A DNA stretch of 32,041 bases, from contig CAIPMW010000116.1 in NCBI GenBank assembly GCA_903866255.1, positions 1-32,041 of the forward strand, read 5' to 3'. Below the pieces are notes generated by a model. The model did no database searches, was not told where the DNA came from, and was given only the letters and a program-made list of their open reading frames with translations. Positions 3,632 to 32,041 of this stretch are shown here, piece after piece; within the stretch, counting starts at the first letter, position 1; each line of letters starts with the position of its first letter. The position numbers and the translations under genes are program-made. This DNA comes from an uncultured Chlorobiaceae bacterium. GTDB taxonomy: Bacteria > Bacteroidota > Chlorobiia > Chlorobiales > Chlorobiaceae.

Positions 3632-5752
3632 ATGATTGTTATGAAGACAGAAGATGAGACTACCATAAATCGTCAGGCTCCTCAGAATTTTACTGACACA
3701 TCCCTCTATGTGAACAGGGAGCTAAGCTGGCTCAATTTCAATCAACGTGTGCTGGATGAGGCGCTTGATCATGACGCACATCCTCTCCTGGAACGGGTAA
3801 AATTCATCTCGATTTTCAGTTCTAACCTTGACGAATATTTTATGACCCGTGTTGCCGGGATTGAAGAGCAATATGAGGCCGGAATTCAGGAACGCACGAT
3901 TGATGGCTATACTCCTGCCGAACAGCTCGACAAGATTCGCACCTTGGTGCAGCAGCAACTCATCCAGAGAAACGAATGCTTTTATCACGATCTTCAGCCT
4001 GCGCTGCAACGAGAGGGTATAGAGTTCCTTCGTATCTCCGAACTCTCAACAACACAACAGAGGGCGTTAAGTCTCTATTTCCGCAAGGATATCTATCCAA
4101 TACTGACCCCGCTGGCTTTTGATACTGGCCATCCCTTTCCCTTTATGTCGAATCTTTCTCTCAACCTTGCCATTGAGCTGGAAGATGAAGAGAGCAAGCT
4201 ATTGAAATTTGCCCGCGTGAAGGTACCGGGCATTCTGCCAAGACTTCTGAGGCTGAACGATATCAAGGGCTTTCAGGTTGATAACGGAATTATCCGATAT
4301 ATCTGGATAGAAGATCTCATTGAGAGTAATCTTGCGCCCCTGTTTCCCAAAATGAGGATTGTACAATCGCACCTCTTCAGGCTGATTCGGAATGCTGATA
4401 TTGAAATTGAGGAGGATGAGGCTGGCGATCTGCTGAAAACCATCGAGCGGGGAATTCGGTCTCGCCGCTATGGAAGTGTTGTCCGGCTTGACATCACACC
4501 GGCTATGCCGCTTTATGTGAGAGTGCTACTCATTAAAAATCTTGGCGTCGCTCCCCGAAATGTCTATGAGATCAATGGAGCGCTTGGATTCGGCTGCCTC
4601 ATCGATCTCTTGAAAATAGAACGGCCAACACTTAAAGATGAACCTTTTGTGCCCTCGAATCGGATTGAAGAGGAATTTGGAGCGGATATTTTCAGAGCGA
4701 TACGCACGAAAGATCGCCTTCTCTACCACCCTTATGACTCATTTCAGCCTGTTGTCGATTTTATTCACCAGGCAGCTCTTGATCCTGATGTTCTCTCTAT
4801 AAAACAGACACTTTATAGAGTGGGAAGCAACTCCCCTATTGTCAAGGCCTTGATGAAAGCCGCCGAAGCTGGAAAACAGGCGGCTGTGCTGGTGGAACTC
4901 AAGGCCCGATTTGACGAAGGAAACAACATTTTATGGGCACGGGCACTTGAAGATGTCGGTGTCCATGTGGCTTACGGCCTGCCGGGAGTAAAAACCCACG
5001 CAAAGCTTACCCTGATTGTGCGCCGTGAACAGCAGAAGCTGAAGCGGTATCTCCATCTTGGCACGGGCAACTATAACCCCTCAACGGGCAAGCTCTATAC
5101 CGATTACAGTTTGTTCACCACCAACGAACAGCTTGCCAACGATGTTGCAGAGGTTTTCAACGCTTTAACCGGCTATTCAAAACATACTGCATACAGAAAA
5201 CTGCTTGTCTCACCAATCAACACTCGCCTGAGGATTATTGAGATGGTTGAGCGTGAGGCCAAATGGAGTCGACAGGAAAAAAGCGGAAGAATAATCATGA
5301 AAATGAACTCTCTCGTTGATCCAAAAACCATCCGCGCACTCTACAGCGCATCTTGTGAAGGGGTGAAAATCGACCTTATTGTACGGGGAATATGCTGCCT
5401 GAAACCGGGCATTCCCGGGGTGAGCGACAACATTCGGGTGATCAGCGTCATCGGGCGTTTTCTTGAACACAGCAGAGCGTACTACTTTTATAACGGAGGA
5501 AAAGAGGAGCTTTATCTTGGCAGTGCTGATATGATGCCGAGAAATCTTGATGATCGGATTGAAACACTTTTTCCGGTGCTCGACAAAGCACTGATAAAAA
5601 TTGTTCTGTCAGATGTTGAACTCCTTTTGAGCGATAATGTCAAGGCATGGCAGATGAATGATCTGGGCGCATACTCAAAAATTAATAATGACTCCCCGCC
5701 AGTAAACAGTCAGGCTCTTTTTCTTAAGCGATCCGCTCTAAAGAAATTTTGA
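3632..5752 (+). CDS. ppk1: Polyphosphate kinase 1
   Basis: This enzyme of about 706 residues reversibly transfers the gamma phosphate of ATP to inorganic polyphosphate. Its length is normal for Ppk1. The N-terminal domain begins with the hallmark [17 protein letters not shown]. The catalytic core has the segment VKTHAKL, whose His (near residue 456) matches the autophosphorylated His of E. coli Ppk, and LEHSRAYYF with the second essential His (near 613). HLGTGNYNP lies between them. The start could be the TTG at 3629, or the ATGs at 3632 or 3641; GGAA shortly upstream favours 3632. The stop overlaps a possible TTG start of the next gene, so the two are probably co-transcribed and perhaps translationally coupled. 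Confidence 0.96.
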
Positions 5753-5763
5753 AATATTCGCTC

Positions 5764-6882
5764 ATGCATAGACTCTCAAACAGCGCGTTCTGCTTTGGAA
5801 ATAACCTGATGTGGCTGCATAAACGAAAGCACCCCTCTCTTGAACGCCTGCTTGATACCGCCAAAACGGTTACTCTTGATCACTCCTCAAAAGTTCTTGT
5901 CCTCAGCGATCTGCATATGGGCAATGGTGGTCGGCTCGATGAGTTCCGAAGGAATGCCGAACTGGTAAAAAGTATACTCGAACGTTATTATCGCCCTCAA
6001 CAATATAGTCTCGTACTGAATGGTGATATTGAAGAGTTGCTGAAGTTTCCACTGCAAAGCATTGAGTCGCAATGGAGAGATTTTTATAATCTGTTTAAGA
6101 CATTCGAGCAGAACGGCTTTTTCTGGAAAACCTGTGGAAACCATGATGCACCGTTGCTTCATGAGAAAAATTACAGGCTTGCATCATCACTGGCAGAATC
6201 AGTGAAATTCAAGTATGGCGAGGAGACTCTCCTGCTTTTTCACGGTCATCAGGCATCGGTGTTTATGTGGGAGACATTTCCTGTTGTCAGCCGTGCAGCA
6301 ATCTTTTTTCTCCGCTACATTGCCAAGCCTGCAGGTATCAAGAACTTTTCAGTCGCCCACAACAGCCGACGACGGTTCGCGGTTGAAAAATCGATTTATG
6401 AGTTTTCCAACCAGGCAAAAATTGTCTCCATCATAGGCCATACTCATCGTCCCCTGTTTGAATCTCTTTCCAAAGTCGATTATCTGAACTACAAGATCGA
6501 AGATCTTTGCCGGATGTATCCTGCGGCTAAAGGCGAACATCGAACAGCAATCAAGGAGCAGATGGAGTCAATCAAAATCGAACTTGCCGCCTGCTACAGG
6601 AAAGGAAAAAAAATCGGTCTCCGCAGTGGCATTTATCACAACCTCACTATCCCAAGTCTCTTCAACTCCGGTTGCGCTATCGGAAAACGTGGCATCACAG
6701 CCCTTGAAATCGGGGGAAACACCATAAGGCTTGTCGGCTGGTATAATGGCAAAGAGAGTCAAAAATTCGAGAGTGACCGGGATAATCGGCCAATGGAGCT
6801 CAGCTCAACTGGCTTTTCCAGGATTGTTCTGAATGAAGACTCTCTTGACTATGTTTTTTCCCGTCTTCATCTGCTGGCCTGA
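5764..6882 (+). CDS. Calcineurin-like metallophosphoesterase
   Basis: This is a binuclear-metal phosphoesterase of about 372 residues. All family motifs are visible in order: SDLHMG (D-x-H), NGDIEE (GD), GNHDAP (GNHD), then HGH and GHTHRP (GH-x-H). No signal peptide is evident, so it is probably cytosolic. The substrate is unknown. The gene directly follows ppk1 and overlaps it by four bases if the TTG at 5749 is used. That placement suggests a role near polyphosphate or nucleotide metabolism, but this is inference only. The ATG at 5764 is chosen; 5749 (TTG) and 5809 (ATG preceded by GGA) are alternatives. The C-terminal part after about residue 250 matches no domain I recognise. Confidence 0.88.
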   Translation: MHRLSNSAFCFGNNLMWLHKRKHPSLERLLDTAKTVTLDHSSKVLVLSDLHMGNGGRLDEFRRNAELVKSILERYYRPQQYSLVLNGDIEELLKFPLQSIESQWRDFYNLFKTFEQNGFFWKTCGNHDAPLLHEKNYRLASSLAESVKFKYGEETLLLFHGHQASVFMWETFPVVSRAAIFFLRYIAKPAGIKNFSVAHNSRRRFAVEKSIYEFSNQAKIVSIIGHTHRPLFESLSKVDYLNYKIEDLCRMYPAAKGEHRTAIKEQMESIKIELAACYRKGKKIGLRSGIYHNLTIPSLFNSGCAIGKRGITALEIGGNTIRLVGWYNGKESQKFESDRDNRPMELSSTGFSRIVLNEDSLDYVFSRLHLLA

Positions 6883-7202
6883 AAGTCAAAGCTTCTCTAT
6901 TAAATGGCCAGGGCAGAAAGCGAAACTGATGACCTGCTCTTATAAGCCACCTTTGTCTTGTTCTTTTTCAGTTTACACTTCTCAGAAACAATAATCCGAT
7001 TCTTAACAAAGATGTAACATTGGGCATATTTTAAAGGGTCAAGTATTGTTGTATCATCAAGTATGCAAGAATTAATAGCAACAGCAATTTTTGAGTCGCT
7101 CTCATCGGGTGTGAGGGATGCTTTATTTCTTTACTCGCTTAATACTTTGAAACTGTTTTTCATTTAACCATTCATTATAACCCTAAAGGGAGTATACAAA
7201 AC
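6883..7202. other. Intergenic region carrying the predicted pst promoter
   Basis: These 320 bases contain no convincing gene. They hold a two-to-three half-site Pho-box-like array (6992-7019), a nearby TATTTT (7027-7032), and a strong Shine-Dalgarno (AAGGGAG) 11 bases before the pstS-like start. The leader from the array to the start codon is about 180 bases. Confidence 0.6.
6992..7019 (+). promoter_or_regulatory. Putative Pho box of the pst operon
   Basis: TTAACA (7003-7008) and GTAACA (7014-7019) are phased by 11 bp, with a poorer third match TAATCC at 6992. TATTTT at 7027-7032 could act as a -10. The array is oriented towards the pst operon, as expected for PhoB activation. The match is weaker than at 15768 or 23448. 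Confidence 0.55.
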
Positions 7203-8183
7203 ATGATTCACAAAAAAATTATAGCCGCACTTGTTTTCGTTGCTGCTTCATTACTCAGTCAGAGTGCATTCTCTGCAGCCGTTCCGGTTGATCCGAAATT
7301 GCCGACTTATCAGAAAGCAAGCGGAGTTTCCGGCAACTTTACCAGTATTGGCTCCGATACCCTGAACAATCTGATGACGCTATGGGCCGAAGAGTTCAAG
7401 CGAGCCTACCCGAATGTCAACATTCAGATTCAGGGGGCCGGTTCAGCAACTGCACCTCCTGCACTGGCCGAAGGTACTTCAAACTTTGGTCCTATGAGCC
7501 GCGTGATGAACGACAAGGAAATCGAAGCGTTCGAGCGTAAACATGGTTATAAACCAACCGCTGTTCCAGTAGCAATGGACGCTCTGGCAATTTACGTTAA
7601 TAAGGATAACCCAGTCAAAGGCTTGACCCTGACGCAGGTCGATGCGATTTTTTCATCCACACGTAAATCAGGCGCATCATCCGACATCACTCTATGGGGT
7701 CAAGTTGGTTTGACCGGTCAGTGGAGTAATCGTGCCATTTCGCTTTATGGCCGTAATTCCGTCTCGGGTACTTATGGCTACTTCAAGGAGCATGCTCTCA
7801 GTAAAGGTGATATGAAAAAAACCGTTGCCGAACAGCCAGGATCAGCATCAGTGGTTCAGAGTGTAACAGGTCAGTTGAACGCAATCGGCTACTCTGGAAT
7901 CGGTTACAAGACCTCAGGTGTTCGCGCAGTACCGCTCGCCAAAAAAGATGGAACGCCCTATGTTGAGGCAGATGCAAAACACGCTCTTGATGGCACTTAT
8001 CCGCTTGCCCGCATCCTGTACGTTTATGTGAACAAAAAACCAAATCAGCCATTGCGCCCTCTGGAACGTGAATTCTTCAAGATGGTCCTCTCCAAACAGG
8101 GTCAGACTGTTGTTGTAAAAGATGGCTTTGTTCCCCTTCCATCAAAATTGGCAGCAAAAGCATTGGCTGAAATCCTGAAATAA
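7203..8183 (+). CDS. pstS: PstS-family phosphate-binding protein of the pst operon
   Basis: This is a 326-residue periplasmic substrate-binding protein. A signal peptide ([20 protein letters not shown]..., cleavage near AFSA) is followed by the PstS-like core. GSDTLNNL and [23 protein letters not shown] are in the phosphate-loop positions, and [17 protein letters not shown] contributes the second lobe. It would deliver phosphate to the PstCA permease. It is only distantly similar to the other binding protein in the window (24900). A strong Shine-Dalgarno (AAGGGAG) precedes the ATG, unlike the pigment genes here, supporting a foreign origin for this operon. It is the first gene of the pst operon. 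Confidence 0.9.
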
Positions 8184-25889: not shown

Positions 25890-27584
25890 ATGAGACACAA
25901 TCTCCTGCAACGCCTTGTTATTGCAACTGCAATGGTGATGATGCTTCTCAGTACCTCTTCATGCCGTCAGAATAGTGATGAGTTGCGGAGTGATCGGGTT
26001 GTTACGGCTATTTCGGCCGATTTCGACTATCTCAACCCCCTGCTAATCCAGTTCTCCATGTCGCGGGAAGTGTGCAAGTTGCTCTATCCTTCGCTGGTAA
26101 AACCAGCTTATGACAAAAATAATGGTGGAATCATTTTTCTTCCTGGTACAGCAAAAAGCTGGGAGTTTGCTCATGATGGCAAAACGGTGACCTTCCACTT
26201 GCGAAACAACGCTCTCTGGGAAGATGGGAAAAAGGTGACCTCTTCCGATTTCAAGTTCTCCTACAGCTTGTACAAAAACCCGAAGATTGCCAGTACTCGC
26301 CAGCACTATCTTAATGATCTGCTGCTGCTGCCGGATGGAACTGCTGATATTCAGCGTGCAGTTGAAACTCCTGATGATTCGACGCTGGTGCTTCATTTCA
26401 ACAAACCAATGGCTGCCGAAATTGTGCTTGACCATTTCAATGATCTGATGCCGGTTGCCATGCATATTTTCAAAGCATTTTCTCCTGATCAAATCCGTTC
26501 CCGTGCAGGTGAAATACCAGTTGTCAGCGCAGGTCCCTATGCAATTAAAAAGTGGATCCGCCAGCAAAGTCTCGAACTGGTATCAAACCACACTTCAACG
26601 CTGCCCCACCCGGCACTTGTTCATAACCTGACATTTCTGGTGATACCTGAATATACCACACGGCTGGCCATGCTGAAATCAGGCCAGATAGATGCCATGC
26701 TTTCAGCGGGCGGCATCAATCCCAAGGATCTCAAAGAGCTTGCAAGAAGCTCCCCTTCTTTGATGATCAAACCGGTCAAAAACCGCTATTTCGACAGTAT
26801 CGTCTGGCTTACTATTGATGGGGCATCATACCGCAACAACCATCAGATAAAACCGCATAGCCTTTTCGGTGACCGAGTGGTGCGACGTGCGCTGACCCTT
26901 GCTATCGACCGGCAGTCAATAATTGACGGTTTTATGGGGCCAGATCACGCCATCATTGTCAACACATCTCTTTCGCCTGCCTACCGGGAGCTTACCGATG
27001 CTTCACTTGATCCTTATGACTATGACCCAAAAAAAGCATCAGCGCTGCTGCGTGAAGCTGGATGGCTGCCGGGCCCTGACGGCATTCTGCAAAAGAGTGG
27101 CAAGAAATTCTCTTTTGAACTGGCAGCTCCGGTCGGCAACCCACGGCGCAACTATGCGGCAACCATAATTCAGCAGAACCTCAGGGAGATCGGTATTGAG
27201 TGCCGTCTGAAATTTGATGAGGGGCTGGTGTTCAATAAAAACCAGAATGAGTACCGCTACGATGCCGCACTGTCGGGGATGGCAGCCGAAACACTCCCCT
27301 TCCAGCTCATTATCTGGGGCTCAAATTTTGCCGAGCGCCCCTTTAATTCATCAGCCTTTCAGCATCAGGAGCTTGATACTGTTATAGCAGAACTCAGTGG
27401 CCCACTTTCACGTGAACGCTCGGTGGAGCTCTGGAAGAGATACCAGAAGATCCTGCATGACGAACAACCAAGAACCTTTCTCTACTACTATGATGAACTT
27501 GAGGGATTCAGCAACCGAATCCAGAATGCAGATGTCAACATGATCTCGACACTCTACAATGTATACGACTGGGGTATCAAATGA
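25890..27584 (+). CDS. Family 5 (peptide-type) ABC solute-binding protein
   Basis: This is a roughly 564-residue extracytoplasmic binding protein. The ATG at 25890 gives a signal sequence ending at Cys25 (LLSTSSC), perhaps a lipoprotein site, although the lipobox is not canonical. The family 5 region TVTFHLRNNALWEDGKKVTSSDFKFSY is clear, with ALTLAIDRQSIIDGF later. Substrates of the family include peptides, nickel and sugars; none can be assigned here. No permease or ATPase genes adjoin it. It sits between the phosphate island and the bch genes, close upstream of bchF. The open frame extends further upstream but overlaps the terminator. Confidence 0.88.
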   Translation: MRHNLLQRLVIATAMVMMLLSTSSCRQNSDELRSDRVVTAISADFDYLNPLLIQFSMSREVCKLLYPSLVKPAYDKNNGGIIFLPGTAKSWEFAHDGKTVTFHLRNNALWEDGKKVTSSDFKFSYSLYKNPKIASTRQHYLNDLLLLPDGTADIQRAVETPDDSTLVLHFNKPMAAEIVLDHFNDLMPVAMHIFKAFSPDQIRSRAGEIPVVSAGPYAIKKWIRQQSLELVSNHTSTLPHPALVHNLTFLVIPEYTTRLAMLKSGQIDAMLSAGGINPKDLKELARSSPSLMIKPVKNRYFDSIVWLTIDGASYRNNHQIKPHSLFGDRVVRRALTLAIDRQSIIDGFMGPDHAIIVNTSLSPAYRELTDASLDPYDYDPKKASALLREAGWLPGPDGILQKSGKKFSFELAAPVGNPRRNYAATIIQQNLREIGIECRLKFDEGLVFNKNQNEYRYDAALSGMAAETLPFQLIIWGSNFAERPFNSSAFQHQELDTVIAELSGPLSRERSVELWKRYQKILHDEQPRTFLYYYDELEGFSNRIQNADVNMISTLYNVYDWGIK

Positions 27585-27675
27585 GGCTATTGCCGGGTTT
27601 GCCGCCTGCATCGTTTTTACTATATTCAGCCACCTTTTTACACAGCGGTTCATCAAAAATCCTCCTCCAACTTTT

Positions 27676-28149
27676 ATGCCTCGTTACACACCAGAACAAC
27701 TTGAACGCAGAAACGCATCAGTCTGGACAAAAGTGCAGGGCATCCTTGCCCCAATCCAGTTTGTCATGTTTCTTGCCGGCCTGACGGTCACCTGGCTCTA
27801 TCAGTCCCACAACGGGATCGACAACTTTGCCTGGATCACCTTTTTTGTCACCCTGAAAACCCTCATGCTTGTCCTTATTTTTGTGACAGGGGGATTTTTT
27901 GAACAGGAGGTCTTTGGCCAATTTGCCTTTGCGCCAGAATTTTTCTGGGAAGATTTTGGCAGCGCCATCGCCATGGTGGTGCATCTCTCCTACTTTCTTC
28001 TCTTCTTTATGGGCCTTGATGAGGCTACACTGATATGGACAGCTCTGCTTGCCTATTTGAGCTACCTCGTCAATGCGGCACAATTCGTCATTCGCCTGCT
28101 TCTTGAAAAGCATAATGAGAAAAAACTCAAGCGAGGCCAGACGGCATGA
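27676..28149 (+). CDS. bchF: Bacteriochlorophyllide 3-vinyl hydratase BchF
   Basis: This 157-residue membrane protein would hydrate the C3-vinyl group to 1-hydroxyethyl during bacteriochlorophyll synthesis. The start MPRYTPEQLERRNASVWTKVQ and the four hydrophobic segments match BchF in order and length. An upstream in-frame extension to 27559 overlaps the previous gene and is not typical, so 27676 is chosen. Green sulfur bacteria also have the paralogue BchV. The adjacent bchC and bchX, both of the bacteriochlorophyll a branch, favour BchF. There is no Shine-Dalgarno. Confidence 0.9.
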   Translation: MPRYTPEQLERRNASVWTKVQGILAPIQFVMFLAGLTVTWLYQSHNGIDNFAWITFFVTLKTLMLVLIFVTGGFFEQEVFGQFAFAPEFFWEDFGSAIAMVVHLSYFLLFFMGLDEATLIWTALLAYLSYLVNAAQFVIRLLLEKHNEKKLKRGQTA

Positions 28150-28175: not shown

Positions 28176-29210
28176 ATGAAAGCAAAAGCAATAGTATTCA
28201 CCGGCATCCGGCAGATTGAACTCTGTGATGTCACCCTGAAACCACTCTCTTCGACCGATGTGCTTGTTGAAACCTTCTGGTCGTCTATCAGCACCGGTAC
28301 GGAAAAGATGGCCTGGAACGGCCTGATTCCGTCATGGCCTTTTATCTTTCCCTTTATTCCCGGCTATGAATCTGTTGGGAAAATAATTCAGGTTGGAGAA
28401 CATGTCAACGAGAGCCTGATCGGCAAGTTTGCCTACGTTGCGGGTTCATTCGGTTATGAGGGAGTCAATGCTGCTTTTGGTGGTGCTTCGGAGTTTATCG
28501 TCTGCCCGGTCGAGAGTATTACGGTACTGGAAAATATTGAGCATCCAGAGTCGGGCATTGCGCTGCCGCTTGGGGCAACGGCCTTACATATTGTTGATCT
28601 TGCAGAGGTGGAAAACAAGAAGGTGCTGGTACTCGGCCAGGGCGCGGTCGGCATTCTTGCCGCAGAACTGGCTCAGCTTATGGGCGCCAAACTGGTTGCG
28701 GCAACCGAACCCAACAAGAACAGGCTGAACCTCTCAACTGCTGAGCTGAAGGTTGACCCTGAGACAGAGGATGTTTCGGCAGCGCTGGCCGGTCATGAGT
28801 TCGACGTTATGATTGACAGCACCGGCATCATGAGCGCCATTGATACAGGTCTGCGCTTTCTGAAATTCCACGGGAAGGTGATTTTCGGTGGCTATTACCA
28901 GCGAATCAATATCGACTACTCCCAGGCCTTTCAGAAAGAGCTCTCTTTTATGGCGGCAAAACAGTGGGCCAAGGGAGATCTGGAAAGGGTGAGAGAGCTT
29001 ATCGGCCGCCACAAACTTAATGCTGAGAGGATTTTTACCCACCAGCGCTCTGTGGGAAAAGATATCACTGATGCCTACCAGAAAGCATTCACCGATCCCG
29101 ACTGCCTGAAGATGATACTGCTCTGGAAAACTGGTACGGAGCAGGAGGGAACGCACTTCCCCTGTCACAGCACAACCATAAGCAGCACACAATGGCAGCA
29201 AGAACCATAG
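28176..29210 (+). CDS. bchC: Bacteriochlorophyllide a dehydrogenase BchC
   Basis: This 344-residue member of the zinc-less alcohol dehydrogenase type would oxidise the 3-(1-hydroxyethyl) group to 3-acetyl for bacteriochlorophyll a. The catalytic-like N-terminal half contains STGTEKMAWNG and IPGYESVGKI, typical of BchC. The Rossmann half has VLVLGQGAVGILAAELAQLMGA. It lies 26 bases after bchF and overlaps bchX by 19 bases, so the three are an operon. The last 20 or so residues (after LWKTGTEQ) are poorly conserved in appearance. Confidence 0.94.
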   Translation: MKAKAIVFTGIRQIELCDVTLKPLSSTDVLVETFWSSISTGTEKMAWNGLIPSWPFIFPFIPGYESVGKIIQVGEHVNESLIGKFAYVAGSFGYEGVNAAFGGASEFIVCPVESITVLENIEHPESGIALPLGATALHIVDLAEVENKKVLVLGQGAVGILAAELAQLMGAKLVAATEPNKNRLNLSTAELKVDPETEDVSAALAGHEFDVMIDSTGIMSAIDTGLRFLKFHGKVIFGGYYQRINIDYSQAFQKELSFMAAKQWAKGDLERVRELIGRHKLNAERIFTHQRSVGKDITDAYQKAFTDPDCLKMILLWKTGTEQEGTHFPCHSTTISSTQWQQEP

Positions 29211-30295
29211 CTATATACGGCAAGGGCGGCATCGGCAAGAGCTTTACCACAACAAACCTTAGCGCCACCTTTGCCATGATGAACAAACGGGTGCTGCAAC
29301 TTGGTTGCGACCCAAAGCACGACTCCACCACATCCCTCTTTGGCGGCATTCCACTACCGACACTGACCGATGTGTTCGCAGAGAAAAACGGACTAAACCA
29401 GCAGGTTGCCATCAGCGATATTGTCTTTCGCAGGGATATAGCAGATTTTCCGCAGCCAATTTACGGCATTGAGCTTGGAGGCCCGCAGGTTGGCCGGGGA
29501 TGCGGCGGCAGGGGCATTATCTCGGGGTTTGATGTGCTCGAAAAGCTCGGCATCTTCAAATGGGAGCTTGATGTCATCCTCATGGACTTTCTTGGCGACG
29601 TTGTCTGCGGAGGATTCGCCACGCCACTCGCCCGCTCACTCAGTGAGGAGGTTATTCTTGTCACCAACAATGATCGCCAGTCTATTTTTACGGCAAATAA
29701 TATCTGCCAGGCCAATAACTATTTCAGAACCATAGGAGGTCAATCAAGGCTGCTCGGCTTGATCATCAACCGCGATGACGGGAGCGGGATTGCCGAAAGA
29801 TACGCCGAGGCTGCCGGTATCACCGTGCTGATGAAGGTGCCCTACAGTGCTGATGCCCGCGACAAGGATGACAGCTTCGACTTTGCCGTCCGGCTGCCTG
29901 AGTTACAGCAGAAGTTCAGAACACTTGCCAGCGATATTCTTGAAAACCGTATCACCCCCTGCGAAGCTGTTGGGCTTGACTTTATGGGCTTTGTTCGGCT
30001 TTTTGGTGACGTGAGTAATGATGCACCTCTCGCAGCAACCGCCGATGAGCTGTTTGGACGCTTAAACAATCTTCCCATTGCTGAGAAAAATAGCGCTCTC
30101 GACAGTGACAATCTGAGGATGCTGCAATGTATTGAAAAGCTTGGGGCTGAAGAGCAGGAGGTTTACCAAATGGTAGAGCAGGAAAAGAGAGCAATCAGTG
30201 AAGTGGCTGAACTGACTCGCAGGGAAGAATCTGCGGTGCGTGAGCTGCTTGTTCGTGCACGAAAAGAGCTGGCGAAGCTTTTTTTTGAGCTATAA
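29192..30295 (+). CDS. bchX: Chlorophyllide reductase iron protein BchX with extended C-terminus
   Basis: This 367-residue protein is the ATP-dependent electron donor to BchYZ, reducing the C7-C8 bond of chlorophyllide. It is nitrogenase-Fe-protein-like, with P-loop GKGGIGKS (10-17) and cluster ligands C104 (GRGCGGRG) and C139 (GDVVCGG), forming a 4Fe-4S cluster across the dimer. The core ends near residue 300. The last 60 or so residues are helical and charged (EEQEVYQMVEQEKRAISEVA..., ending RARKELAKLF) and resemble a sigma region 4 helix-turn-helix. bchY and bchZ are not in the window. The start lies within bchC, suggesting translational coupling. Confidence 0.95.
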   Translation: MAARTIAIYGKGGIGKSFTTTNLSATFAMMNKRVLQLGCDPKHDSTTSLFGGIPLPTLTDVFAEKNGLNQQVAISDIVFRRDIADFPQPIYGIELGGPQVGRGCGGRGIISGFDVLEKLGIFKWELDVILMDFLGDVVCGGFATPLARSLSEEVILVTNNDRQSIFTANNICQANNYFRTIGGQSRLLGLIINRDDGSGIAERYAEAAGITVLMKVPYSADARDKDDSFDFAVRLPELQQKFRTLASDILENRITPCEAVGLDFMGFVRLFGDVSNDAPLAATADELFGRLNNLPIAEKNSALDSDNLRMLQCIEKLGAEEQEVYQMVEQEKRAISEVAELTRREESAVRELLVRARKELAKLFFEL

Positions 30296-30442: not shown

Positions 30443-31651
30443 ATGCCTTGGACAGAAAAAAGGCTATGCAGCTCATGCGGACTCTGCTCAATTCAGGCCT
30501 GGCCGGTTGAAGAGAGTATCAGTAGCTGTGTTTTTACAAACGGATGGCTCGGCGAAAGGGAAAAAAACCTCTTTGGCCGTGAAAGAAGTTTTGAGGATCC
30601 CATAGAGTTGCGTTTTGGGATCACGACTGAACGTTTTACAGCACAACTGAAACAACCGATTGCTGGTTCGCAATGGAGCGGCATCATCACACGCATGGCC
30701 ACAAGAGCTTATGAAGAGAAGCTTGTAGAGGGTGTTGTTACACTGCATTGCGATCCTGACCATCACTTTTACTCTCTCCCTGTTCTGGCAAAAAATAGTG
30801 CCGAAATTTTTGCGAGCAGAGGTAATAAACCTGTGCTCTCCCCTGTTTTACAATCTCTTGAGAGTGCATGGCATCTTGGAATGAAAAAAATCCTTGTCAT
30901 TGGGGCAGCTTGTCACCTGCATACACTCAAAGATTTTCAGAAAAGGTTTGCATACCTTCAAGACATGGAGATCCTCACAATCGGTATTCCCTGCGTTGAC
31001 AATATCTCCCGTTCAAAATGGCCCTGGATTCTTGAAAGAATATCGCAATCGCCAGCAACGGCTCTCTCCATGGAGTTCATGCAGGATTTCAGGATTCATA
31101 TTTGGCACAAAAACGGCAACGTTGAAAAAGTCCCCTTTTTCAGCCTTCCTGAAGAATTGGCTGACCCGGGGATTTTTCCTCCTTCCTGTATGAGCTGTTT
31201 TGACTATCTCAATGCTCTTGCGGATATTACCGTCGGTTATCTGGGGGCTGAACTGCTGCCGAAGGAGAAGCGCCAGTGGGTACTGGTAAGAACAGAAACG
31301 GGGAAAAAACTACTGCAACTGATAGACGGTGAACTTGAACGTTTTGCCGAATCGGGCAACTGGGAGTGCCGATCTTTTGTGCAAAAGACATCGAAAAGGA
31401 TCATTGAGAGCATGAAGGTGAGACAAAAAGAGTACTCTGTCAAGAGAAATATTCCCCTCTGGCTCGGACAAATTCTTTCGACCTTTCTTTGCACTATTGG
31501 TCCAAAAGGAGAAGGATTTGCTCACTATTCAGTTGATTATCATCTGATCCGCCATTACTACTACGTAAAATTCCGCTATCCGGAGTTACTCGAAAGAGTG
31601 GTGCCAAAATATGTTCCGGTAATTCTTGAAGAGTATGGATTGCCACTCTGA
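30443..31651 (+). CDS. bciB: BciB/HCAR-type flavin iron-sulfur reductase
   Basis: This 402-residue protein is of the F420-hydrogenase beta-subunit family. In photosynthetic organisms the group includes 8-vinyl reductase (BciB) and 7-hydroxymethyl chlorophyll a reductase (HCAR). It has CSSCGLC (C9, C12, C15) plus C29 near the N-terminus, and [21 protein letters not shown] (C249, C252), typical of the pair. The late segment [20 protein letters not shown] is also characteristic. BciB is preferred because green sulfur bacteria need an 8-vinyl reductase, but the adjacent chlorophyll-b-reductase-like fragment leaves HCAR-like activity open. It probably has its own promoter in the 147-base gap after bchX, and ends 13 bases from the converging fragment. 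Confidence 0.85.
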
Positions 31652-31664
31652 ACAAAGGCGCTGT

Positions 31665-31903
31665 TCAGTCAAAAAAGTTGCGCTTGTTGAATGGTGCCAT
31701 CGCGATTTTGGCAACCATTCGAGGTTTTGTGAGCCAGCGGATTTTTGGCGATTGATCGGTTGACGAAAGTATTTTATTGCAAAGAAAAGCAGAAACAGTC
31801 TCGACATCATCTGCCATAACATTGAAAAACTTTCTTTTTTTAAGGCTTTCCTGAGAACCATCGCTGACCATGGAACAAAGCATGTCGGTAACCACCATAC
31901 CAG
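31665..31903 (-). pseudogene. C-terminal fragment of NOL/NYC1-like short-chain dehydrogenase
   Basis: About 80 codons on the minus strand read (P)GMVVTDML...KFFNVMADDVETV...IRWLTKPRMVAK...FNKRNFFD. They match in order the C-terminus of NOL/NYC1 chlorophyll b reductases, including the conserved PGM-x-TD loop. Homology begins exactly where the terminal repeat ends (31903/31904). The codon split there would restore the family's Pro (CCT) if its first base were C rather than the repeat's G. Upstream, within the repeat, the frame reaches a stop after about 16 unrelated codons. So the gene has lost its Rossmann and catalytic part, most simply by insertion of the repeat element. Confidence 0.75.
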
Positions 31904-32041
31904 CCTGATTTCCCGATAATATTATAACGAGGAAGCACCAAACAGCACAGCAATGTTTCTAATTCCATGAATTATAGGTTATTCGGTAAGGATGTATTGC
32001 AATCTTTGAGCTTATACCCGGGAACGCCGAGCTCCAGCTCG
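31904..32041. repeat. Right copy of terminal inverted repeat
   Basis: This is the inverted partner of 1-138 (136 of 138 identical). The inner edge truncates the dehydrogenase. An outward frame starts at ATG 31967 and runs open to the end (25 codons, MNYRLFGKDV...), mirroring the left copy. The outer 92 bases of the two copies are identical, while the two mismatches lie further in. That is the pattern expected when an assembler stops where two repeat copies become indistinguishable. Confidence 0.9.

Follow-up and report, generated by a model that had tools for sequence, protein, structure and literature searches.

In the window analysed here, which is the entire 32,041-bp contig C116 of a green sulfur bacterial genome (G000; 2.80 Mb in 117 contigs), a reductase gene of the BciB/HCAR family (FrhB1) and the 3′ end of an SDR-class dehydrogenase gene (SDR1) are arranged tail to tail. 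FrhB1 forms a distinct clade with residue changes of its own, is redundant with BciA, and co-occurs with SDR1 in the genomes compared. Judging from these sequence comparisons, the two enzymes may well constitute a two-step reductive module for a (bacterio)chlorophyll-type tetrapyrrole, similar to the half-cycle of NOL/NYC1 and HCAR. SDR1 was broken by an ordinary transposition, which hit a redundant copy.

Gene Context of the Window

The right end of the window carries, in order, bchF, bchC, bchX, FrhB1, and the 3′ end of SDR1:

27559..28149 (+), bchF (TIGR02020), context
28176..29210 (+), bchC (TIGR01202), context
29192..30295 (+), bchX (TIGR02016), context
30443..31651 (+), FrhB1, intact BciB/HCAR-family reductase of 402 aa (Pfam FrhB_FdhB_N and FrhB_FdhB_C; PDB 5DQR; own clade, support 100/97; W307, G358, H361, H371)
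31665..31903 (−), SDR1, C-terminal 78 codons and stop; contig C45 carries the 5′ part at its 3′ end (from 57378)
31897..31903 (no strand), 7-bp target-site duplication, window copy (CTGGTAT when read on the minus strand), matched by a second copy on C45
31904..32041 (+), initial 138 bp of the inserted repeat, with 135/138 identities to the full 280-bp copy of contig C58

The tail-to-tail arrangement of an SDR gene and a BciB/HCAR-family gene in a green sulfur bacterium, noticed in an earlier sequence-only reading, was confirmed at 30443–31903, with the stop codons 13 bp apart; the matches behind this exceed chance by a wide margin. The BchX protein (29192–30295) has a C-terminal extension (approximately residues 300–367) with a weak likeness to sigma-70 region 4 (E 5e-5, just below the Pfam cut-off). 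In ten of ten relatives examined, including the Chloroherpeton-like G038, the alignment extends to the C terminus (residue 366 or 367).

Transposition into SDR1

The SDR1 fragment is read in frame 31904–31668 (−) with a stop codon at 31665–31667 and encodes 79 residues (AGMVVTDML...NKRNFFD). It is 70% identical to residues 184–260 of an intact 261-aa SDR on contig C106 of the same genome. The intact copy was assigned to adh_short (Pfam, E 7e-40), and no Pfam domain was found with the fragment alone. The coding sequence ends at 31903/31904, and the insert explains why the first residue is read as A, not P. The repeat boundary is at 31904; the same start, CCTGATTTCCCG, followed variable flanks in six of the seven other copies examined, and the exact-word search did not show it in the seventh (L007). 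Matches of at least 82 bases to the repeat occur at 27 places in the genome, including two in the window. The latter, at 1–138 and 31904–32041, are copies of one element end and are 136/138 identical as reverse complements.

With the C106 SDR as query, the missing 5′ part of SDR1 was located at the 3′ end of contig C45, where it abuts the other end of the element. The C45 end reads ...CAGCCCTGGTAT against one element end, and the window side starts with CTGGTATGGTGG. Merging the two 7-bp copies (CTGGTAT) gives a 261-aa frame with a terminal stop only and SPGMVVTD as in the intact SDR. The element parts of 138 bp (window) and 137 bp (C45) account for 275 of 280 bp, and the C45 part matches the other end of the C58 copy at 133/137 positions. 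SDR1 was thus, almost certainly, truncated by a repeat element that transposed into the PGM loop with a 7-bp duplication. The earlier reading had placed the truncation at this loop, next to a contig-end repeat, and had proposed a check across the repeat for the N-terminal part; the boundary at 31904, the restored frame, and the half found on C45 with its matching duplication bear out this truncation. An assembly artefact at the repeat, as the repeat copies at both contig ends of the window might suggest, is extremely improbable given the exact 7-bp duplication, the matching gene halves, and the synteny past the break.

Beyond the break, C45 continues with HmaC- and HmaB-like genes; these anti-phage defence genes (L142:5819-12160) lie directly past the broken SDR. 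The same HmaC-like gene, matched by sequence start and length, stands directly after bchX in G028, and four of the ten relatives examined (G003, G021, G016, and G036) have in this place a GTPase gene, which we take to be typA-like. From this comparison of bchX neighbours, the FrhB1-SDR1 pair lies in an island inserted after bchX, with bchX on one side and an Hma-type defence island on the other.

The insert is most simply a 280-bp ORF-less element with short inverted ends. Its length, the lack of an ORF (judged from the 280-bp length alone), the inverted ends, the target duplication, and the many near-identical copies are those of miniature inverted-repeat transposable elements. The duplication is exact at the SDR1 insertion; at the C58 copy, one of six flanking positions is mismatched. 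Unlike such elements, one copy (on contig C6) encodes the reverse transcriptase of a group II intron. Since this intron-bearing long form exists, the insert length at SDR1 could differ from 280 bp. The C6 copy (L256:780-2922) is split by ~1.9 kb with the reverse transcriptase/maturase beside a palindrome. An Rfam search of the repeat flanks found nothing useful.

Second Copy of the Pair

An intact pair is located on contig C106 (SDR at 5421–6206 and FrhB1 at 6222–7415), which also carries a type IIG restriction enzyme. In the FrhB1 tree, the C106 copy groups with copies of other species and the window copy diverges close to the base of the main clade; in the SDR tree, the N-terminal part of the window SDR is separated from the C106 copy, but weakly supported there. 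These positions are better explained by an old or transferred copy than by recent duplication, and the window pair is probably a second copy of the module acquired by transfer. Between the two copies, dN and dS were 0.155 and 1.66 for FrhB1 and 0.206 and 1.51 for the SDR N-terminal part, with dS near saturation. Both window genes were formerly under purifying selection, and the break is therefore probably recent. The loss of a pigment-modifying step, considered possible in the sequence-only reading, is not supported genome-wide because the C106 pair is intact.

Phylogeny and Specific Residues of FrhB1

FrhB1 is a complete protein with N- and C-terminal FrhB_FdhB domains. Its best PDB match is the plant 7-hydroxymethyl chlorophyll a reductase, HCAR (5DQR; E 2e-71, residues 6–398), a homologue within the family; however, the BciB-type protein of G038 gives a better score with HCAR (E 3e-83), so that the match does not single out the HCAR function. 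In the tree with BciB and HCAR that had been proposed as a check, the 38 FrhB1 sequences were monophyletic and formed their own clade (100/97; midpoint root, long HCAR branch) beside the known 8-vinyl reductases. The window FrhB1 is 53% identical to the G038 protein, taken as BciB of Chloroherpeton thalassium (Ctha_1208), and shares with it the FrhB_FdhB domains and the iron-sulfur cysteines; all eight family cysteines are invariant in the 38 FrhB1 and 11 BciB sequences. Nevertheless, FrhB1 does not fall among the BciB proteins of Chlorobiales without BciA. The two groups differ at eight positions that are conserved to at least 90% inside either group, and at every one of the eight plant HCAR has the BciB residue. 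In particular, W307, G358, H361, and H371 were present in 38/38 FrhB1 sequences, whereas G, E, R/K, and N, respectively, were found in 17/17 others (11 BciB, 4 FrhB2, one from Thiodictyon, and HCAR). The gene for the Thiodictyon BciB-like protein lies among bch genes. With its four specific residues, FrhB1 may catalyse an altogether different reaction.

FrhB1 also differs from BciB in coexisting with BciA, and always with SDR1. BciA, identified by its sequence pattern and NmrA-type domains, was recognized in 36 of the 37 genomes of the genus (with a stop in the G001 copy and a partial copy in G013) and in 0 of the 24 others. All 12 Chlorobiales genomes of other families encode a BciB-type protein in place of BciA.

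Co-Occurrence and Layout of the Pair

A set of 61 genomes, including 37 of the genus, was searched with identity thresholds of at least 60% for FrhB1 and at least 47% for SDR1. FrhB1 was found in 22 of the 37 (~60%), and SDR1 in exactly those 22. For independent genes in unrelated genomes, the odds of such exact agreement would be 1 in 9.4 billion; as the genomes are related, the real value is far less extreme. The pair is compact and convergent in 18 of the 22 genomes, and the genes are ~5 kb apart in G007, G015, G017, and G027. A scan of named MAGs gave 28 FrhB1 loci, 23 with and 5 without an adjacent SDR1. Eleven of these loci are contigs already in the set; in the 17 further genomes, SDR1 is adjacent in 12 and elsewhere in 5. 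The absence of SDR from some FrhB1 genomes was considered and rejected, the five MAGs without an adjacent gene holding an SDR1 relative (47–49%) elsewhere. Adjacent or unlinked, SDR1 accompanies FrhB1 in 39 of 39 genomes, and the suspected tie between reductase and dehydrogenase is thereby upheld. In G032, a broken SDR1 lies beside an FrhB remnant, both decaying side by side; G001 has an SDR1 fragment without FrhB1 nearby.

In the SDR1b clade, SDR heads TolC-, MacA-, and MacB-like genes in line in all seven loci examined (L251–L255, L071, and L072). Domains were tested in L254, and L251 ends within the TolC-like gene; the clade members L073 and L111 are outside the seven loci annotated gene by gene. 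FrhB1 is tail to tail with the MacB end in L071 and L072, and the compact pair may have arisen from such a pump-type locus through loss of the pump genes. No bch genes were recognized beside the C106 pair or beside the genes of the seven pump-type loci. A scan of viral contigs for SDR relatives found nothing useful.

Comparison of SDR1 with Plant NOL/NYC1

The C106 SDR1 belongs to adh_short and contains TGSSRGIG, NNAG, and YGTTK, which correspond to the classical SDR motifs TGxxxGIG, NNAG, and YxxxK. Like the chlorophyll b reductase NOL/NYC1, it is a classical SDR that partners an HCAR-family enzyme, and its C-terminal pattern appears similar. With plant NYC1 and NOL fragments as queries, however, another SDR of the genome, on contig C44, scored higher (132 and 111) than the C106 SDR1 (105 and 73), and no formyl-bearing pigment is predicted in the source cell. 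The label "chlorophyll-b-reductase-like" given to the gene earlier is therefore only a lead. The C44 SDR (L129:4536-5489) adjoins an NmrA-like gene. A full-length SDR1 relative (38% identity) was found in Nonomuraea, an actinomycete that is not known to make chlorophyll; thus, this type of SDR need not act on pigments.

Relation to Bacteriochlorophyll e

BciD was identified as a 401-aa protein into which two published bciD primers translate (AKVTVN exactly, LAKDHR at 5/6); one comf primer matched it at 4/6 and the other did not match, and Pfam did not recognize the protein. A 475-aa radical-SAM protein (L157:9201-10628) was rejected as BciD, being present in 12/12 other-family Chlorobiales genomes searched; it is presumably BchQ-like, given the bchV-bchQ neighbourhood. 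The source genome contains no bciD, only relatives of 28–29% identity. Six matches to distant BciD relatives of the 400-aa class (28–31% identity) lie within ~12 kb in G027 (L185, G027:C66:3250-15342), and similar groups are present in G005 and G023.

Within the genus, bciD was found in 3 of 37 genomes (G018, G025, and G031, partial at a contig end in the last), none with FrhB1, and in 0 of the 22 genomes with FrhB1. At the thresholds applied, neither FrhB nor an SDR1-type gene was present in two of the three. G025 has a divergent FrhB2-SDR2 operon, with FrhB2 first, located ~0.8 kb from a gene taken to be cruB-like by position (no family model supports the name strongly) and 7.3 kb from bciD, with extra bchF genes near. 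The same operon lies near a cruB-like gene in G032, which has no bciD match; in G036 and G022, SDR2 stands beside a bchF-family gene without FrhB. The bacteriochlorophyll e-type cluster of G025 (L155:14259-16520 and neighbours) includes a broken second bchQ-like gene and a transposase-like ORF. As PMC6639628 describes it, the bacteriochlorophyll e cluster of a brown strain holds bciD, bchF3, and cruB. The neighbourhood of cruB-like, bciD, and bchF genes thus places one family branch at a pigment locus.

The FrhB1 branch of the window does not follow bacteriochlorophyll e. The comparison with brown-type genomes suggested in the sequence-only reading yielded a divergent pair near bciD in G025 and no FrhB1 in the three bciD genomes, and the C7 chemistry of bacteriochlorophyll e that it had envisaged found no support in the source genome. 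Two of the five MAGs with an unlinked SDR1 are the bins GSB_A and GSB_B, which, from their names, we infer to be the green populations GSB-A and GSB-B, reported in PMC8163819 to be without bciD or cruB.

Proposed Function

In the proposed module, SDR1 would use NAD(P)H to reduce a carbonyl to an alcohol on a (bacterio)chlorophyll-type tetrapyrrole, and FrhB1 would perform the next reduction with ferredoxin, FAD, and [4Fe-4S] clusters. Because BciA is present, the substrate should not be the 8-vinyl group, and because bciD is absent, it should not be the C7-formyl group of the cell's own bacteriochlorophyll e.

Studied members of the BciB/HCAR branch act on chlorophyll-type tetrapyrroles, and the position of FrhB1 within it weighs against a role of the module in the synthesis or modification of a quinone, a secondary metabolite, or a similar compound that is no pigment and is perhaps exported. 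That role would suit the SDR-headed TolC-MacA-MacB-type operons (7/7 SDR1b loci examined, one cut by a contig end) and the Nonomuraea relative; MacAB-TolC itself, however, exports protoporphyrin in E. coli, according to PMC4263509, and we regard a non-pigment product as rather unlikely. Slightly less doubtful, though still unlikely, is that FrhB1 is an extra ferredoxin-dependent 8-vinyl reductase, a BciB isoform, with SDR1 unrelated or hitchhiking. The shared family with BciB and the retained eight cysteines agree with this, as does the occurrence of several 8-vinyl reductases in many green sulfur bacteria noted in PMC4214422. Against it stand BciA already present in nearly all genomes of the genus, the separate clade with four unique invariant residues, and SDR1 accompanying FrhB1 in every genome even when unlinked. 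An action, present or past, that resembles the one of NOL and HCAR on chlorophyll b but targets the C7-formyl or hydroxymethyl group of bacteriochlorophyll e seems quite improbable: HCAR as the best PDB match and the FrhB2-SDR2 operons of G025 and G032 speak for it, but none of the three bciD genomes of the genus has FrhB1, two of them lack both gene types at the thresholds applied, and plant HCAR sides with BciB at the eight positions that separate FrhB1 from BciB.

The two-step reduction of a tetrapyrrole thus appears to be the function to consider for FrhB1 and SDR1. More broadly, and with greater doubt, the pair could represent a widespread, undescribed Chlorobium module for tetrapyrrole deoxygenation/reduction, composed of a neofunctionalised BciB and an SDR, which would parallel the plant chlorophyll cycle in bacteria, act on a pigment or a breakdown product, and once have been coupled to a MacAB-TolC-type exporter. 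No description of the FrhB1-SDR1 pair was found in the portions of the literature consulted. The inventory of pigment enzymes in green sulfur bacteria is regarded as complete; PMC6166724 calls its enzyme the last unidentified one for pigments used in photosynthesis. If the proposal is true, a BciB/HCAR-type clade redundant for 8-vinyl reduction, locked to a dehydrogenase, and found in ~60% of the genomes of the genus compared would point to an unrecognised tetrapyrrole reaction or turnover route, and the automatic label "8-vinyl reductase" would be corrected for many genomes.
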